A stretch of 64,000 nucleotides of DNA from a gamma proteobacterium HIMB55 (GTDB taxonomy: Bacteria > Pseudomonadota > Gammaproteobacteria > Pseudomonadales > Halieaceae), in the NCBI GenBank assembly GCA_000227505.4, contig AGIF02000001.1, forward strand, positions 1,136,035-1,200,034, written 5' to 3'. Every line of letters begins with the position of its first letter. The stretch's first letter is position 1. Below the pieces are notes generated by a model, which was not told where the DNA came from, did not search any database, and saw nothing but the letters and a program-made list of their open reading frames with translations. Below, one piece after another: positions 1,996-38,467 of the stretch. Made by a program: the position numbers and the translations under genes.

Positions 1996-4900
1996 CTAGA
2001 CAGCAACTTCGGCGAAAACGGTTAAAGCGGGAAAATAAAGCGCGGCTCTTGTTTGGACAACGTCGTTCTCTTTTTGCCCGTCATAGAGATCGATTAGCGA
2101 GCAATACGTTTGAAGTTGTTCTTTGTATTTTTCTGACTCTCTCAAAATAAACTGATCCAGAGCTTCTCCCTCTGCGGGCTGGCTAGATTTATAGTCAATA
2201 ACCCACCGCGTTGCAGTGATGCTGTCGATAAAGGTTCGATCAATAATTAGCTCTCGTTGCGTTTCTCGATGCCAGAGTGAGAGTTCACTTGAAGCATCTT
2301 GATGGCCGCTCGAAATGAGCCAGCGTCCTCGCTCATCGGCAAGTAGGTTGTTGAGGTCCTGCTCGATATTAACCATCTGCGTCTCAAGAACATTGCTCGC
2401 CATCCCTGCATTGATAAGCTGAAACCGTGCCGCAGCTAATACCTCTCCAGGGCAGGATTCAGGAACTACATCGAGCTTCGAAAGTAATTCTACGGCTCGA
2501 TGGAGCGCAGTTCCGTACCGTCTTTGAATGAGGTTTCCAATCGCCAATACAGGGTTTGTTGCCGACAAAGTAGAGGTAGGACTAATAGCACCGCTCGGGG
2601 CATCCACACTTTTGACACGTCGCAACGTTCGTACCTCTTCTCCGGCAGTACTGACGTCGGTTTCAGCGGATATCTTTATCGGTTCATAGTGGACGGTAGC
2701 TCCAGCGGCCTCGCAGAAGCGTGACCAGAAAGCCGCTGTTTTGGTGGGGGGCCAAGCCTTCTCCGATTTTTGGGTGGCCGTTATTGTGCAGGAACGTTTC
2801 GCGCGAGTGACGCCAACGTAAAAGAGACGGATAAGTTCCTGCTGCTCTTGCGCCTTGTTCAAATACCTAAGGTAATCGTAAACCGAACCCTCTCTTTCCA
2901 ACTGCGGTTTTGCCGCAATCATCAAGCCTTTGTTTCCGTCTCGGTACCACCTCAGTAGCGGCGAGTCGCCCGAACGCCCCACCCTAGCCGCACCCACGAT
3001 GAAAACATGATCAAACTCGAGCCCCTTGCTCTTGTGTAGAGTCATCAACTCCACGGATGCAGTTGCGGACTCAGCTTTGGAATAACCCTTATCAAACCAA
3101 TCATTTAGCGCAGATATATCCAGCCGATTTGTCGATACTTCTTGCTGCCGAATCTGATCAAAAAGTGCTTCAGTGTCGAGCACCTCTGAAGTGGGATAGG
3201 CCGTATTGCCCCCAACTCTCGCCCAGGTTTGCTGAATCCAAGCTGTCAAATCGAGTCGGTCTCGCTTGGATTCGGCCCACGCGAGCGCAGCGCAAGCATG
3301 GCGAAGCCGTGCACAACCGTCAGCTGACACCGATGTTCGTCCACTTTTGATGAGCTCTGCGAGATTCGAAACCGATTGTTCGCTTAAGAGAGGCGCAATG
3401 AAACCTATGTCTTTAAAGGTCACTCCCACCATGGGTGCTCTGAAAAGTGCGAGCATTGCGATTGTGTCCGCGGGGTTCGCTAGCCAACGCACCAACGACA
3501 TCAGGTCCGCTACTGCCGAGCGCTGGTTATACGGTGTTAAATCCGACCCTACAACGTCGATTCCTGCTTGTGCGAGCGCAAGGCTCGTTGGCGTGATCGC
3601 AGCCCGACTTCTGCCAAGCACGGCGATAGTGCTACCTGGTTGATTTGCTTGTATTTGGACGATTTTTTCAGCGACAAACGTGGCTTCACGATGCACATCG
3701 TCGGGGAAGACATTTATTGCGACGGATTGACCCTCTACGGCAGGATTAACCGCCTCCGCCTTGGTCAACGGAACAACACCCAGACGAGAATCGCCATTCG
3801 CAGGAATCAAAGCCCCAAACTGCTGGTTCACCCAGGAAATAACATTTGCCTGCGTTCTAAAGTTCTGCGTTAAGGCCCGAGATTTGAGTGCAACTCCGGC
3901 AATGCCCTCACTCTGAGCTTTTAAAAATAATCCCACGTCTGCGTAGCGAAAGCCGTAGATACTTTGCATTGCATCTCCGACGATAAACAACGTCCGAGGC
4001 GATTGGGGGTTTACAAAGTTGTACTCCGACCAGCCGCGACATAGCTTCTCCAGCAGTTGGAACTGCGTAAGCGAAGTATCTTGAAATTCATCAACAAGAA
4101 TATGCTGAATCTGATAGTCCAAGCGCAGCGCTAAGTCAGTCGGTTCACTGTCATCACCCAAGGCGAGATCAGCAGCCATGGCCATATGCGTGTGGTCAAC
4201 CATACCGCGAGACTGAAAAACAGCCAGCAACTGCGCCGCGAGAACCGGTAGAACGCGAGACAGTCGTAACACCCCTTCCCATTCTTCCGAAGCGAGACTC
4301 AACGTCGGCAGCGCCGCAATTTCCTTGAGAATATCAACGCGCTCGGGGTGATCTCCGATCTCCGCAATGCGATCAATCAGCTGCTGCTTAATCTCCGTGT
4401 CCAGTTTCGCTCTGAAGCCCCAATTTTTGTTGAAGCTTTTGCGAGGAGTACCCTCCTTTACCAGTACAAAGTTAACAAACCATTTCCAGTGGTCTAGCGA
4501 AGACAGCTCGCTACTCAACTGAAGTGAATCACCTTCGAAGGTATTCGCCTTCGCTTCTTCAACTGACCCATCTGCAACCGATGATTGCAACCGATGTTTC
4601 GCCTGATTAGCCGCCTCCATAACATCAGATAGCCACTCTTGAGGAAGCTGATCTTGAGCCTGAGCAAGACGGTCAGAAACAATGCGCTCTAGTGTTTCAA
4701 GCGCAAGCTCCGCCGCGGCTTCGGGATTTTCGTGCTGCCCAAGTGCTGACAACCAATCACCCCGCTGGGCCAAGAGTGAGATCAGTAATTCACTGCAACG
4801 CTGCCAGTTGTTCTCCATTAGGAGTAAGAGCTCCCGAAGCGCTTCACCACGTTTAGAGTTTTCGGGCATCAAACCGTAAAGATCATCAACTGCCTCTGCA

Positions 4901-32451: not shown

Positions 32452-35160
32452 ATGAAGAAAATGTTGATCAACGCTACGGAGCGCGAAGAAGTTCGTGTCG
32501 CTCTCGTAGACGGGCAGCGTCTTTACGATTTAGATATCGAAAACCGCGCCCGACTCCAAACAAAAGCCAACGTCTATAAAGCGAAGGTCACTCGCGTAGA
32601 ACCCAGCCTCGAAGCCGCGTTTGTGGATTTCGGTGCTGAACGACATGGCTTCCTACCACTCAAAGAAATCGCGCATCAGTACTACCGATCTGCAGCCCCC
32701 TCAGACGGTAAGATGCGGATCAAGGATGCAATAAAAGAAGGCACCGAGGTTATCGTTCAGGTCGATAAAGAAGAGCGTGGTACCAAAGGTGCGGCCCTCA
32801 CGACCTACATCAGCCTCCCAGGCCGCTACATGGTCTTGATGCCCAACAATCCAAAAGCTGGTGGCATCTCGCGACGTATCGAAGGCGATGATCGCAGTGA
32901 GCTTCGCGATGCGCTGAACCAACTCGAAATACCCAACGGTATGGGTGTCATTATCCGCACCGCTGGCGTTGGACGCTCGGCTGAGGAATTGCAGTGGGAT
33001 TTGGACTACCTGCTGAAGTTATGGGCAGCCATTTCTGAAGCCGCTGATGAGAACCCGCCGCAGACGCTCCTTTACCAGGAGAGTGATGTCATCATCCGCG
33101 CGATTCGAGATTATCTGAAGGACGACATTGATCAGGTTCTGATTGACGAAGCGCATGCACACCGACAGGCGCTCGATTTCGTCAGTATGGTGATGCCGAA
33201 GTACCAGAATAGAATCAAAGCTTACGACGATTCACTGCCCCTCTTTAATCGCTTTCAAGTCGAAGGTCAGATAGAGACAGCGTTTCAGCGGGAAGTTCGT
33301 CTACCCTCTGGCGGCTCGATAGTCATCGACCCTACCGAGGCGCTGGTGTCTATTGACATTAACTCTGCTCGCGCCACGAAAGGCAGTGACATCGAGCAAA
33401 CAGCGCTTCAAACAAACCTAGAAGCGGCTGACGAAATTGCGCGTCAACTTAGACTTCGCGACATGGGCGGTCTTGTTGTTATCGATTTCATCGACATGAA
33501 CGCATCTAAGAACCAGCGTGCGGTTGAGAACCGTATGCGTGACGCTTTGGAAATAGACCGAGCGCGTGTACAGCTCGGCCGTATTTCGCGATTTGGCCTG
33601 CTGGAGATGTCACGTCAACGCCTGCGCCCCTCGCTGGGTGAGACCAGTGGCATGGTATGTCCACGTTGTACGGGTCAGGGAACTATCCGTGACACAAAGT
33701 CCCTCGCACTAGCCATCCTTCGTCTTATTCAGGAAGAGGCTTCTAAAGAGCGCACGGGTGAAGTTCGCGTGATTGTCCCTGTCGATGTCTCTGCGTTCTT
33801 GTTAAATGAGAAGCGCTCAGCAGTGGGTGAGATTGAACAGGAGACTAAGGTCCGCGTAGTCATCATTCCGAATCCAAATATGCAGACGCCTCACTTTGAG
33901 GTCATTCGTCTGCGTGATGACGAGGTCGACGATGATCAGCGCGAGAGCTTCGAGATCGATCTATCAGCGTTTGAAGCTGAAGCTGCAACCAACGACGAAG
34001 AGAAGGCCGCGCCAGCGCCACAAGCGCTCGTGCGAGGTGTGACGCCTGACGCGCCGCCACCCGCTGCATCACCTGCACCTGAGAAAGTTGAGCAAGCACC
34101 TGCAGTTGCAGAGACTGAGAGCACATCAAAGCCTGGCTTATTCCCCCGCTTGTGGGCTGCACTATTCGCGCCCATGCCGAAAGCTGAGGAAGTCGAGGAG
34201 AAAGATAGTAAGGACGAAAAGAAATCTGAGGCGCGTTCTGGCAATAAGGCCAAGCGACGCAACAATCGCCAGCGCAAGCGTCCCGCCAAACAAACTGATG
34301 CGGATGCAAACGTCGAAACCAAAACATCGGCAGACACACCATCAGTGGCGGATAACGAGAATGGAGAAAGCGGCGCCGAAGGTGAACCTAAAAAGCGTCG
34401 CAGACGTGGCCGTCGTGGTGGCCGCCGGCGTAGCGCTGGAGAGGCCGGATCGGATAACACTGTAGCGATAACAGCAGATACAGATGGGGACCTAGAAGAA
34501 AGCTCCAATGAGGTAGATGCAGATTCTACTGATGAGACATCAGCAGGCGAAAATGCAGAACCTCGACATCGTCCTGCCGACAAACGCACTGAAGGTCGGC
34601 GCCGACGCAGACGCGGCCCCAAGACTGATGGAGCGGTAACAGAGCAGACTGCGTCGGAAACGAGTTCCGATGGGGCCGCAGCAGCAATTTCTGCGGAAAC
34701 ATTAGAGGCAGCGGCGGGTAATGACACCGCAGGATCAAAGGATGGCTCGGCGGAGATCTTCGCAACGGTCCAATCAGCGAGCGTTACAGAAGTGTCGGAA
34801 GATGCGAAGCCGATGGAACCAGGTACCGCTACTGTGGCGTCGAAATCAAGCGATATTGATTCTTCGTCTGATAAAAGCGAGCCAGTATTAGCGGCTTCAC
34901 AGACACCGTCAGGGGCCTTGGATCTTAGCGGTATCACGGAAGATGGTAGAGCAATTAATGACCCACGGGTCGACGCAAAACCCATCACTGAAATACGTGT
35001 TGAAACAGCCAAACGAGCCCTCTTCAGCTCAGAAGCATTCCCAGACGCGATGAAAATCGCGAATAACCCTGAGCGGGCCGCAAACGACCCTCGAGGCCCC
35101 CGAGCAGTGGAAGCTGCAGAAGGCACAGATTCTGAGGAAAATAACGCACAGGAAGCTTGA
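32452..35160 (+). CDS. rne: Ribonuclease E
   Basis: Endoribonuclease and scaffold of the RNA degradosome. 902 residues, shorter than E. coli RNase E. The catalytic half holds the S1 domain (residues about 37-118), the DNase-I-like site ([28 protein letters not shown]) and the zinc-link CPRCTGQG. An amphipathic segment [16 protein letters not shown] near residues 562-577 lies where E. coli has its membrane-targeting helix. Arginine-rich blocks follow ([14 protein letters not shown] and RRRRRRGPK), then an acidic low-complexity tail and two NDPR motifs near the C-terminus, a motif described in pseudomonad RNase E as a partner-binding site. Confidence 0.97.
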
Positions 35161-35184
35161 TAGTCGGGGAGGCATCGCTATAAT
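35157..35184 (+). promoter_or_regulatory. Sigma-70 promoter of tRNA-Ser
   Basis: TTGATA (35157-35162), a 16-bp spacer and a perfect TATAAT (35179-35184). The -35 box overlaps the rne stop codon. The GC-rich stretch after the -10 is typical of growth-rate-controlled stable RNA promoters. Confidence 0.75.
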
Positions 35185-35219
35185 GCGGCGCTTCCCTCGA
35201 CGGAGTCGAGACAGGTTTA

Positions 35220-35307
35220 GGTGGGCTGGCTGAGTGGTCGAAAGCGGCGGTCTTGAAAACCGTTGAACCGAGAGGTTCCCGGGGTTCGAATCCCTGGCCC
35301 ACCGCCA
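35220..35307 (+). tRNA. tRNA-Ser (anticodon UGA)
   Basis: 88-nt class II tRNA with encoded CCA. The acceptor GGTGGGC pairs with GCCCACC and the discriminator is G, as in serine tRNAs. The anticodon loop CTTGAAA gives TGA. The long variable arm and T arm GGGG-TTCGAAT-CCC are present. An intrinsic terminator follows after 11 bases. Its last bases recur at 35472-35488. Confidence 0.97.
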
Positions 35308-35488
35308 TCTATGAAAGAACCGCCCTCCTGGGCGGTTTTTTTATGGATCCGTTTTGGGTTAGGTTTAGAAGTCCAGAGCGTTCGATCCAAAGCGATCCTG
35401 GGAGCTTTGGGAACCGAGCCGCAGAGCGGCGAAGCCCATCGGGCCGAAACCGTCATAGGGCGGTTTCGGGTAATCCCTGGCCCACCGC
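35289..35488 (+). repeat. Direct repeat of the tRNA-Ser 3' end flanking a structured segment
   Basis: The 17 bases AATCCCTGGCCCACCGC occur at 35289-35305, within the tRNA T arm and acceptor, and again at 35472-35488. The copies are 183 bp apart. Between them, after the terminator, are three short perfect hairpins with no reading frame. The layout is that of an attachment-site scar or of the tRNA-3'-end repeats known from the E. coli tyrT operon (rtT). No integrase gene is nearby. Confidence 0.7.
35319..35342 (+). terminator. Intrinsic terminator of tRNA-Ser
   Basis: ACCGCCC-TCCT-GGGCGGT followed by a run of seven T. Ends the tRNA transcript. Confidence 0.9.
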
Positions 35489-35530
35489 TGTTCAGTAACG
35501 CCTCAAGCTCCCTTCACCAAGGGTACGGGA

Positions 35531-38467
35531 TCACGGTGTCTCTGCCGCCGATACGGCATCTAGAGCGGCCTTGAATATCAGAATGCTCGTACCCGCAACT
35601 GGTGCATCGGATGCATCGGTTGGCGAGGTACCTTCCTCTATCTCTTCGCCGTCTGAGAAGCCATCGCCATCGGTATCTGATGAAGTCGGATCCGTACCTA
35701 ACGTCACCTCGTTACCATCAGCTAAGCCGTCATCATCCGAGTCCGCATCATTAGGATCGGTTCCTAATTCAGCTTCCTCGTCATCTGTTAACCCGTCTTC
35801 GTCACTATCTACATCATTGACAGCACTCGGCGTCACCTGCCCCATGGCCACAGTTTCACTCGGGTCGCTGTCTGCAAACGCGGTTATCTCACACGTGTAG
35901 GTCTCATCGTTTTGCATACCAGACAACACAATCGGTGATGAAACACCTTGATTGGTGACTACATCTCCCGGAGTGACCGAGGACAATAAGAGCCCCCAGG
36001 AATTGAGTGTCCCAGTATCTAACTCAAAAAAGTCAGTCACTGTAAGCTTCCAATCGCCAGCAGCGGACTCACCCTCCAACGTATCCAGTGAATCCTCTGC
36101 AGCGAGTGAATCGGGAAATACGCCCTGGACATTCGTGCCTGCATCAGACCCCAAAGAGCTCTTAAGTCGAACGCTCGTACCCGTGGGTGATTGTAAGACT
36201 AGGACAATGTCGCCGCGATAGGTGTGCGTAATATCCACCGGAACCTTTACGCCACCCTCTTGAATTGTCAGATCAACATCAACTGACAGTACTGAATCGA
36301 TTGTTCCCTGATCAGGAATCGCAACCGCTGGTGCAATTGAAAAATTGTATTCGTCGACAATATCTTCCGTTCGACAAGAAACTTCGTATGACGTTACGGG
36401 AACGCCATTGTCTACCCCTGGTGTGAAGGCAATGCTGACGCCTCCGTTGACCGGAGTCAGTGATGTTTCTGTTGGCGCTGGTGGCACGGGCTTATCCGAG
36501 TCCAACGTGAAATTCGCGTCCGAAACGTCATAAAAAATATTATCTTTGGCACGGATCATGATTCTCGCGCTACTTGATTGGATACCCGCTGGAAAACTGA
36601 CCGAAGCGAGCCCATCATTGTCAGTGACCCCGAGTGACGTATCGAATGAAACACCGCCATTCGTCGATAAGAAGATTTCAACCTGTGAAGCGTTGATGGG
36701 CGCTTGATCGGTTTGCGACACATCCCACCGAATAGTCTTGGACTCCCCAACAGTCTCACCTCCATTGGGTGATACCAAGCTAAAGGGACCGGCGGAGCCG
36801 CTCACCGTAACCACGATATCATCCGAATCTACACCACCAACCCCATCTCTGGCCGTTAGGCGCAAATTCATGTCTCGAGCCACCTGCGGAATCTTCTCAG
36901 AGTCGCTATAGTTCCCCGACAGCACAGAGGGTAATGCGGGTAGATATCGTGTTGCACTAGATGTCGGTGTGAGAACACGAAATAACGGTATTTCCCCATC
37001 ATCAGTAGCTGACAACGCTGCTTGTGAACCCAAATCACGTTGCTCCCACAAATATGTGAGTTCGCTTTGCTCTGCATCACTGGCTGAGCCCGTAACAATC
37101 AGGGGAGTGCCCTTCGGCACAACATAGTCAGCCCCCGCATCGACAACAGGGGCGGTATTTCCCGTATCTGTTACCACCCCGCAAGACGAACCAAGGCCTT
37201 CAGCAACATAGGTTCGAATTTCCTCGAAGCTCTCAGAGTGATAAATCGGATCGACCGCGTTTTGCAGATCATCAACACCACAAAGACTAGGATAGGCCTG
37301 GATCGTAGAACCACTTCCCGGCTCATAAGCAGATAAGTACCACCGAGTAGAGCCAGCACAGCCGCCATTAGCGCCATTAAACGTGTGGTTTGCACCGAGC
37401 TGGTGTCCTATCTCGTGTGCCACAAAATCAACGTCGAAGTATTCCCCTCGTGGCTGTGAACTGCCCGTAACACCCTGAGCTTTTCGGATAGGGTTACAGA
37501 CGGAACCCAGGGATGCCAGCCCCCCTGCTCCGGTGCTGAAGGTGTGCCCGATATCATAGTTTTCGGAGCCGATAAGGAGGTCAATCTGCTCCTGAGACTC
37601 GTCGATCAAGGTAGAAGCGTTGTTATTGCCAGTGAAAGGTGATGTGGCCACCGAGGTAAAAAGAATCTTGTCGTTATCCGGCACTAACTCAAGACTTAGC
37701 GCCATCTCTTTCTCTAAAATCCCAGTAACGCGATTGATTGTGGTCGTGACGGCGCTGAGGATGGTGGACTTTTGACCACCGTGGAAAACACCGTATTCGC
37801 CAGTAGCCGCAACAGCCAATCTGTAAGTTCGAAGTTGGCTGCCACTCGATTTAGCGGCGTTACCGTGCTTCGCCGCAAAGAGCTTTTTTTCGAAGTCTGC
37901 CTGTGAATCGGGGTTCAATACGCCTCCTTCGAACTCACAGAAATTGCTGTCCGAGCTGCGCTTAGTGTCTTTGGTGTAATAGACAACTGAGAGACCTTTC
38001 TGCCCTCCCGTAAGTGGATCTATCATCCACCTATTCCCTGGCTCCAAAACTTGTGCGCTAAATCCGTTGTCGGTCAACTCGAAACGCAGGGTAATCGACG
38101 GGTCAGCGATCGCGTAGCCTTTAAAGGCAGTTACGGAGGGATACTTTTTGCGGAGCGCCTCCGGCAAAACGCCAGAGGGTTCGATAAAAAACTGCATGAC
38201 ATCGCCGTTAGGCGCAGGAAGTGTCAACGTAGTGCCGGTGCTGGCTTTGGCTTGCGCTCCACTGACAAGTGATTTCATGCCCGCCAGGTCGAGATCAACG
38301 ACGCGAAGTCCCTCCGAGCTGCTCGCATATTTGCTCTGGGACACGATGGTATCAACTGATGCCCGGTCAACATCGCTCCAGTGGGGCTGCGCCAGTGCCG
38401 AGACCGAAAAAAAGAGCGAGACCATGCCAACCCGGCTGATGCTATTGAATATTTTCGTCGTCTTCAT
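35531..38467 (-). CDS. Secreted reprolysin-type (M12B-like) metallopeptidase
   Basis: 978 residues with an N-terminal signal peptide ending near SALAQ. A propeptide-like region is followed by a zinc protease domain (about residues 210-430) with HEIGHQLGANH at 351-361. Further domains in order are a PKD/Ig-like one (438-558), an NGGE-type Ig-like one (562-656), a fibronectin-III-like one starting near 666, a P/Homo B domain (about 717-830) that seems nested within that fibronectin fold, and a run of TSP3-like calcium repeats (DSDEDGLTDDEE and similar, 886-955). The short hydrophobic C-terminus is not a recognised GlyGly-CTERM. It probably degrades extracellular protein. Convergent with tRNA-Ser. 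Confidence 0.88.
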   Translation of the reverse strand: MKTTKIFNSISRVGMVSLFFSVSALAQPHWSDVDRASVDTIVSQSKYASSSEGLRVVDLDLAGMKSLVSGAQAKASTGTTLTLPAPNGDVMQFFIEPSGVLPEALRKKYPSVTAFKGYAIADPSITLRFELTDNGFSAQVLEPGNRWMIDPLTGGQKGLSVVYYTKDTKRSSDSNFCEFEGGVLNPDSQADFEKKLFAAKHGNAAKSSGSQLRTYRLAVAATGEYGVFHGGQKSTILSAVTTTINRVTGILEKEMALSLELVPDNDKILFTSVATSPFTGNNNASTLIDESQEQIDLLIGSENYDIGHTFSTGAGGLASLGSVCNPIRKAQGVTGSSQPRGEYFDVDFVAHEIGHQLGANHTFNGANGGCAGSTRWYLSAYEPGSGSTIQAYPSLCGVDDLQNAVDPIYHSESFEEIRTYVAEGLGSSCGVVTDTGNTAPVVDAGADYVVPKGTPLIVTGSASDAEQSELTYLWEQRDLGSQAALSATDDGEIPLFRVLTPTSSATRYLPALPSVLSGNYSDSEKIPQVARDMNLRLTARDGVGGVDSDDIVVTVSGSAGPFSLVSPNGGETVGESKTIRWDVSQTDQAPINASQVEIFLSTNGGVSFDTSLGVTDNDGLASVSFPAGIQSSSARIMIRAKDNIFYDVSDANFTLDSDKPVPPAPTETSLTPVNGGVSIAFTPGVDNGVPVTSYEVSCRTEDIVDEYNFSIAPAVAIPDQGTIDSVLSVDVDLTIQEGGVKVPVDITHTYRGDIVLVLQSPTGTSVRLKSSLGSDAGTNVQGVFPDSLAAEDSLDTLEGESAAGDWKLTVTDFFELDTGTLNSWGLLLSSVTPGDVVTNQGVSSPIVLSGMQNDETYTCEITAFADSDPSETVAMGQVTPSAVNDVDSDEDGLTDDEEAELGTDPNDADSDDDGLADGNEVTLGTDPTSSDTDGDGFSDGEEIEEGTSPTDASDAPVAGTSILIFKAALDAVSAAETP

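Follow-up and report, generated by a model that had tools for sequence, protein, structure and literature searches.

A repeated tRNA-Ser(TGA) 3' end in a Halieaceae genome probably marks one unit of a large tRNA-trailer element family that includes E. coli rtT

The tRNA-Ser(TGA) locus repeats its own 3' end

The analysed stretch of 64,000 nucleotides from the gammaproteobacterium HIMB55 (the window) contains a tRNA-Ser(TGA) gene at 35220–35307 on the forward strand, which is recognised by ARAGORN and Rfam and encodes its CCA at 35305–35307. Its 5' neighbour (32452–35160) encodes a 902-aa protein that we named rne-like by eye; Halieaceae and Luminiphilus assemblies are among the best-matching named contigs for this gene. 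A candidate promoter, TTGATA-16-TATAAT (35157–35184, forward strand), agrees with 11 of 12 consensus positions, compared with a mean of 0.1 in shuffles, and is presumed, as a consensus match only, to be the promoter of the tRNA-Ser transcript. The initial annotation had placed a terminator behind the tRNA. This assignment stands as a terminator-like hairpin with a T-run that can be seen by eye at 35318–35342 on the forward strand, and not as a computed feature, since a simple scan of 35100–35600 does not report it.

The 17-bp sequence AATCCCTGGCCCACCGC occurs on the forward strand at 35289–35305 and, exactly, again at 35472–35488, with a spacing of 183 bp and 166 bp between the copies. In 100 dinucleotide-preserving shuffles, exact matches had a mean of 0.00 and matches with up to three mismatches a mean of 0.20. 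The repeat of the tRNA-Ser 3' end, first noticed by inspection, is thus confirmed, with none expected by chance. Copy 1 spans the T-loop, the acceptor strand, the discriminator and the first C of CCA. Copy 2 ends at this first C and continues as CTG (CCGCTG), so that the final CCA is lost.

A structured core lies between the two copies

The DNA between the copies constitutes one rtT-type unit on the forward strand, with an 86-nt core of four hairpins and a weak fifth hairpin before the core. The core (35386–35471) scores 104.3 bits with covariance model R1 and 87.1 bits with model R2, both of which were built with the window copy, and is framed by the two sides of the tRNA T-loop in the order GTTCGA[core]AATCC. 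It is not derived from a tRNA and comprises the hairpins P3 (35386–35393/35404–35411), P4 (35418–35422/35426–35430), P5 (35434–35437/35441–35444) and P6 (35445–35454/35459–35468). The preceding P2 region (35370–35385; alignment A3) ends in GTTCGA, the motif of the T-arm 5' strand. The unit is enclosed by a closing stem, P1, whose 5' strand UGGGUUAGG (35355–35363) is complementary to the copy of the tRNA 3' end at 35476–35484; copy 2 of the repeat is both the tail of the unit and the 3' strand of P1. The model match begins at 35364, on the same strand behind tRNA-Ser(TGA).

In the window copy, 29 of the 32 consensus pairs form, and P2 makes only two of its five. The 9-bp P1 is present in both folds of 35352–35489, the minimum free energy fold at –60.1 kcal/mol and the consensus-constrained fold at –57.1 kcal/mol, while P2 and P3 are replaced when the unit folds without constraint. 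The loss of CCA, the poor P2 and this altered fold together suggest that the window copy may be decaying and on its way out. A 978-aa metalloprotease-like protein, with calcium-binding type repeats close to its C-terminus (both by eye), is encoded on the reverse strand at 35531–38467 and converges on the unit.

A BLAST search with 35341–35495 matched 10 of the 57 genus genomes, own genome included, and ties the window unit to loci L120–L126, L129 and L130 without recourse to a model. At 7 of the 11 loci from other genomes, ARAGORN predicts a tRNA-Ser with a GCT or GGA anticodon and not TGA; the units of these other-genome loci share the window's layout. Their tails are exact copies of their own tRNA 3' end with CCA at L121 and L122, a copy with a mismatch at L126, and only partly kept at L120, L125, L129 and L130. 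L126 also carries an IMES-1 RNA (RF02034, 145 bits; 2308–2492, reverse strand) about 0.7 kb from its tRNA-Ser(GGA) unit.

Ten units were aligned to a hand-written structure of five hairpins and 32 pairs that was not fitted by a model. In this alignment 92.1% of cells are paired and 15 pairs show double changes (0 of 500 shuffles), and versions in which the structure was slid drop to at most 46.1% paired. Model R1, built from this set, finds matches in 33 of the 57 genus genomes at E ≤ 0.01. The second model, R2, was derived from a genus-centred set of 62 matches representing 60 distinct units. In its alignment, which is fitted to the model and thereby favours the structure, 28 of the 32 pairs change on both sides and 371 cells carry double changes, versus 101.6 in shuffles. 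G:U outnumbers A:C in paired cells by 114:18 and 129:32, which suggests that the tRNA-sense strand is the one that folds; a G:U excess would then be expected, and a bias of the model may contribute. R2 matches of 22 bits at L010 and L011 overlap the tRNA and were rejected as spurious.

Units are widespread in the class and sporadic at this locus

At E ≤ 0.001, R2 finds units in 32 of the 57 genus genomes. With the same threshold, its counts for the order (130 of 390 genomes), the class (89 of 369) and the phylum (27 of 299) are lower bounds, because 9–12 candidates were scored per genome. Eighteen of the phylum-level genomes lie outside the class, 16 of them in one family. Tandem arrays with a period of about 175–193 bp occur, for example, in G489, G467 and G336. 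The window's genome is a single contig of 2.74 Mb with the window unit at 1.17 Mb. By BLAST the unit is single copy there; R1 adds two diverged units and R2 three, giving four units with four different tails. Among the phage and plasmid BLAST matches listed (20 of 36 and 20 of 34 records), there were only tRNA-sized matches.

Absence of the second copy from all close relatives, with no sign of insertion, had been named as evidence against the repeat being a genuine element. On this point the outcome is mixed. In the two nearest relatives that are collinear on both sides (G056 and G030), about 200 bp hold no recognisable second copy. Among 80 loci of the rne-linked set, ARAGORN was run on 33, of which 17 had a tRNA-Ser(TGA) with enough sequence behind it; two carry an R2 unit, Haliea sp. 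E1-2-M8 (L050, 84.3 bits) and, weakly, L052 (23.9 bits), and the other 15 have none. Yet tRNA-Ser(TGA) is followed by units outside the genus, in other genera and in one further family (L021, L025, L027, L028, L034), and by weaker variants within the genus (L013, L017). Units are thus sporadic at the rne/tRNA-Ser(TGA) locus, and the locus turns over fast.

Such scattered presence would suit a neutral relic, a functionless tandem duplication of the tRNA 3' region, as would the lost CCA and poor P2 of the window copy and the limited share of order and class genomes with a match, even as lower bounds. However, a core that is not derived from tRNA and has kept its structure is no simple duplication; its pairs covary, albeit in a genus-centred set, and it is found across the class. 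We consider a relic of this kind very improbable.

Tail and closing stem follow the preceding tRNA

For the context of the units we took 80 order-level loci from the listed best-scoring R2 hits, one per cluster, a non-random set that was chosen without regard to tRNAs. At 61 of them ARAGORN predicts a same-strand tRNA at the first unit, in 60 cases 43–84 nt before the match. The tRNAs are of many kinds (Arg 14, Ser 13, Phe 10, Met 9, Val 8, Lys 3, Asp 2, Pro 2). The 19 remaining loci include six with a tRNA-like tail before the unit, seen by eye, where no tRNA is predicted (L221, L231, L238, L257, L261, L285). An opposite-strand tRNA occurs only at L241 and L272 and on inspection lies in front of the unit in neither. 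Also among the 19, L242 (G322) and L256 (G397) carry unit arrays with ends GATGCTTCCGCCATGCG..., unlike a tRNA tail, which are either decayed or belong to a different host gene.

At class level, 26 of the 29 best R2 loci have a tRNA, as do 19 of the 22 RtT loci re-found by R2, and the class-level loci add Tyr, Gln and Glu. Four loci come from beyond the class: in two of them a tRNA (Asn, Ser) immediately precedes the unit, and in the other two none is predicted, one of these showing a tRNA-like tail at the contig end. A restriction of units to tRNAs with a long variable arm (Ser, Tyr) was considered and rejected, as Arg, Val, Phe, Met, Lys, Gln, Pro and Asp also occur.

The 14 nt after the core were then compared with the locus's own tRNA at 60 of the 61 loci (L288 excluded). 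The mean agreement is 10.35 of 14 positions, versus 6.77 when permuted (sd 0.22, maximum 7.55), and the own tRNA is a better match than every tRNA of another kind in 30 of the 60 loci. Agreement is best in the T-stem part, and the acceptor part has often diverged. Across the same 60 loci, the 5' flank pairs with its own tail at –15.84 kcal/mol versus –13.61 kcal/mol in permutations (sd 0.40; 0 of 2000 permutations). In the window's genome, the tails behind Ser(GGA), Arg(ACG) and Lys(TTT) are each their own tRNA 3' end, exact from ATC to CCA; the Ser(TGA) tail in the window is exact too, but stops short of CCA. These comparisons show that the tail and the closing stem P1 follow the tRNA in front.

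Probable movement of cores from one tRNA gene to another

In the forms observed, the core is flanked by GTTCGA and (A)ATCC, which are the two sides of the tRNA T-loop. In the tandem array L288 (G489:C4:594200-596000), it splits the T-loop in three tRNA-Val(GAC) copies that are otherwise complete, and the array closes with one intact tRNA-Val. In islands, the core is found inside a tRNA-Val half that starts at the anticodon loop.

In G009, one unit behind Ser(GGA) and one behind Ser(GCT) agree in 99 of 108 columns (92%), and their flanks GGAGAGGGAT and GGAGAAGGAT are each complementary to their own tRNA. In a tree of 34 units, in which only 8 of 31 inner branches are well supported, these two are sisters (99/95), as are the Arg(ACG) and Ser(TGA) units of G070 (98/91), which share 84 of 111 columns. 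The closest neighbour of the window unit is a Ser(GCT) unit from a different species in the genus (89/85, weakly supported), and not one of the TGA units of other genera. Sister units behind different tRNAs of one genome indicate that cores move between tRNA genes.

This mobility could be that of an element acting at the level of DNA, mobile or recombining, which would be recognised as a folded single strand and use the T-loop as its insertion site, with covariation arising from hairpins in the DNA or from template switching. Even in the absence of selection on an RNA, template switching can produce perfected inverted repeats such as P1. The change of tRNA within the G009 and G070 genomes, the sharp GTTCGA/AATCC boundaries, the core within otherwise full tRNA-Val copies in L288, the island copies with the core in a tRNA-Val half and the sporadic presence at one locus are all in keeping with such an element. 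We nevertheless regard it as unlikely. The position of 60 of the 80 units at a short, same-strand distance behind a tRNA fits co-transcription; the G:U excess lies on the tRNA-sense strand, though the model may favour G:U; a search for tyrosine integrases revealed no mobilising enzyme; and RtT relatives are detected RNAs according to passages of one report (PMC4986893).

A further proposal, also unlikely, is that of a selfish or symbiotic element, spread across the class, which lands in the T-loop, the one stretch that nearly all tRNAs have in common, and rewrites its closing stem for each new tRNA. At L125 and L177 the 5' strand reads TGG... and is complementary to the tRNA CCA end. Such a strand is similar to a tRNA primer-binding site, so the tRNA 3' end may prime the copying or serve as a point of template switching.

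Integrases and islands at tRNA genes

The initial annotation had left two origins side by side, an rtT-like unit and the scar of an excised element, and had noted that no integrase lies here. The latter observation holds well beyond the window: a PF00589 search, which covers tyrosine recombinases, found no tyrosine-integrase gene within 460 kb of the unit, and the PF00589 genes of this genome lie at 1.63, 2.05 and 2.09 Mb. Extra tandem copies or islands at the same tRNA in relatives were expected to tell the two origins apart. Tandem arrays of units do exist elsewhere, and in G054 (L012) an exact copy of the tRNA-Ser(TGA) 3' end including CCA is found some 1 kb further downstream. The interval holds a reading frame of 153 aa but no unit, and is probably a small insertion at the same tRNA. 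No island is found between the repeats in the window.

Islands are evident in relatives within the genus, where units stand kilobases apart at tRNA-Val(GAC). The island junctions read [arm]-TTGACAT-tRNA-Val 3' half-CCA-terminator-unit (L165, L166, L167, L169, L173, L178). Islands L164 and L168 have different cargo and, by eye, no evident integrase. In the window's own genome, a 299-aa tyrosine integrase lies 89 bp behind tRNA-Val(GAC) (L364:8128-9193; G000:C1 near 2.086 Mb); in G053 an integrase gene starts 102 bp behind tRNA-Val, and in G035 an integrase domain match lies at most 0.5 kb downstream. By eye, the tRNA-Val islands of relatives contain TonB receptors, transporters and dehydrogenases, with similar arms before TTGACAT. 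From junctions of a tRNA-Val half, a terminator and a unit, with an integrase nearby, we conclude that the crossover was probably in the anticodon loop and that these look like integrase islands carrying the unit as a passenger. The island forms with a core fused to a half-tRNA would be a later collapse. The unit as attachment site of these islands was rejected, given the junction order of tRNA-Val half, terminator and unit.

Several observations favour the scar of an excised or decayed integrative element with tRNA-Ser as its attachment site: elements of this type leave behind a direct repeat of a tRNA 3' end like the 17-bp one here, the insertion-like copy in G054 indicates that tRNA-Ser(TGA) seems to receive insertions, and tRNA-Val(GAC) comes with an integrase gene in the window's genome and in relatives. 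At the window site, however, what separates the copies is a unit of a kind that occurs with a local tail behind many tRNA kinds and also in tandem arrays. The 166 bp hold neither cargo nor a longer tRNA fragment such as the anticodon-loop half of the genus tRNA-Val scars. Together with the distant integrases, this makes a scar highly unlikely here, even though the tail does begin at the T-loop, which like the anticodon loop can be a crossover point of such elements. It is the rtT-like origin that stands, by its architecture, its covariation and the R2 matches at 22 of 30 RtT loci.

Relation to RtT and other Rfam families

The window unit passes no Rfam family cut-off. RF00391 (RtT) has no match in the window at its gathering cut-off of 45 bits, on the window locus L119 at E ≤ 5 or in the window's genome at E ≤ 0.01. 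Conversely, R2 gives E. coli rtT 15.7–19 bits, which is not above noise and falls below the spurious 22-bit tRNA match of the same search. At E ≤ 0.01, RF00391 has matches in 80 of the 369 genomes of the class, and in 23 of these the match exceeds its cut-off. Of the best RF00391 loci, 30 were fetched, and R2, built without RtT loci, re-finds 22 of them, 16 above 30 bits, and misses eight. Full-length sub-cut-off RF00391 matches occur on units of the family at L130 (22.1 bits), L282 (26.0 bits) and L236 (25.2 bits). Since R2 and RF00391 meet at common loci, the link to rtT runs through shared intermediates. The window unit would then be a far relative of E. coli rtT; the direct link is weak and rests on the places common to both models. 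At the level of the family, the data place rtT in a much wider group whose units follow tRNAs of many kinds throughout the Gammaproteobacteria, with a few further genomes outside that class. A literature search of incomplete coverage found no description of this wider rtT-type family.

RF02902 (AaHKsRNA22) matches L313, L307, L267, L258 and L260, above its cut-off only at L313 (45.0 versus 39.8 bits), and has no match in the window at its cut-off. This suggests that RF02902 and RF00391 belong to one clan. Sub-cut-off matches of RF02223 (sX4) at L301, L304, L314 and other loci cover tRNA-Ser and its terminator, so that much of what is called sX4 may be transcript of tRNA-Ser. A hammerhead ribozyme and an integron attC site were considered and dropped after comparison of their motifs by eye.

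For RtT itself, passages of one study describe Northern signals in Actinobacillus and RtT in other E. coli tRNA operons and in Pasteurellaceae (PMC4986893). An effect on the stringent response is stated in literature citing Bosl and Kersten 1991. In an sRNA overexpression screen for E. coli biofilm and motility, RttR was without effect, being given as 97 ± 9% with no other effects (PMC4606813), and part of a 2010 study links rtT-like sequences to BIME repeats (PMC2965389).

Discussion

We propose that the 183-bp repeat behind tRNA-Ser(TGA) is probably a single member of an extensive family of tRNA-trailer elements, to which E. coli rtT also belongs. Read-through past the tRNA terminator would transcribe the unit, whose RNA would fold on its own into a multi-hairpin structure closed by P1 and could be excised as the tRNA is processed, which is what has been reported for rtT. 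Its most likely role would be that of a small RNA whose production keeps pace with that of the tRNA. Copy number could grow when the repeated tRNA 3' ends recombine unequally. Because every tRNA offers nearly the same landing sequence, GGTTCGA/AATCC, cores could pass between tRNA genes, with the receiving tRNA supplying the tail.

The architecture of the family is well defined: the core stands on the T-stem, and the closing stem changes with the tRNA. This makes its function testable by compensatory mutation and allows many unrecognised units to be annotated, and at least two Rfam entries are suggested to belong together. It also poses the question of how the element keeps matching the tail of whichever tRNA precedes it.

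The locus can be set against several known systems. In tRNA-targeted islands of the Islander type, the displaced tRNA 3' end marks the end of the island, as described in part of the source (PMC4383910). Such islands need an integrase, cargo and a tRNA fragment reaching to the crossover; integrase and cargo are absent at the window site, and it is tRNA-Val(GAC) with its integrase gene that resembles an Islander-type island here. AaHKsRNA22, an Aggregatibacter sRNA, forms a separate Rfam family (RF02902), yet its model matches the same units as ours. The RtT RNAs Arrc20 and Arrc21 of Actinobacillus pleuropneumoniae, from another bacterial group, are placed upstream of tRNA-Asn and tRNA-Lys in a passage of the same report that describes the Northern signals (PMC4986893).

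The closest comparison is with E. coli rtT (rttR) of the tyrT operon, where units lie 178 bp apart and follow the order of a 5' strand, GGTTCGAC, hairpins including CCCGAAGGG, GTAATCC and a tRNA tail with CCA, the 5' strand being complementary to the tRNA-Tyr 3' end. The window unit differs in standing behind tRNA-Ser and not tRNA-Tyr, in being single, in having lost CCA, in the terminator-like hairpin between tRNA and unit, and in P3, P4 and P6, which are by eye unlike those of rtT in length and sequence. Both nevertheless lie behind a tRNA, end in the tRNA 3' end and open with a 5' strand complementary to that end, and E. coli rtT shares with the rtT-type units the layout of GGTTCGA, hairpins and GTAATCC.
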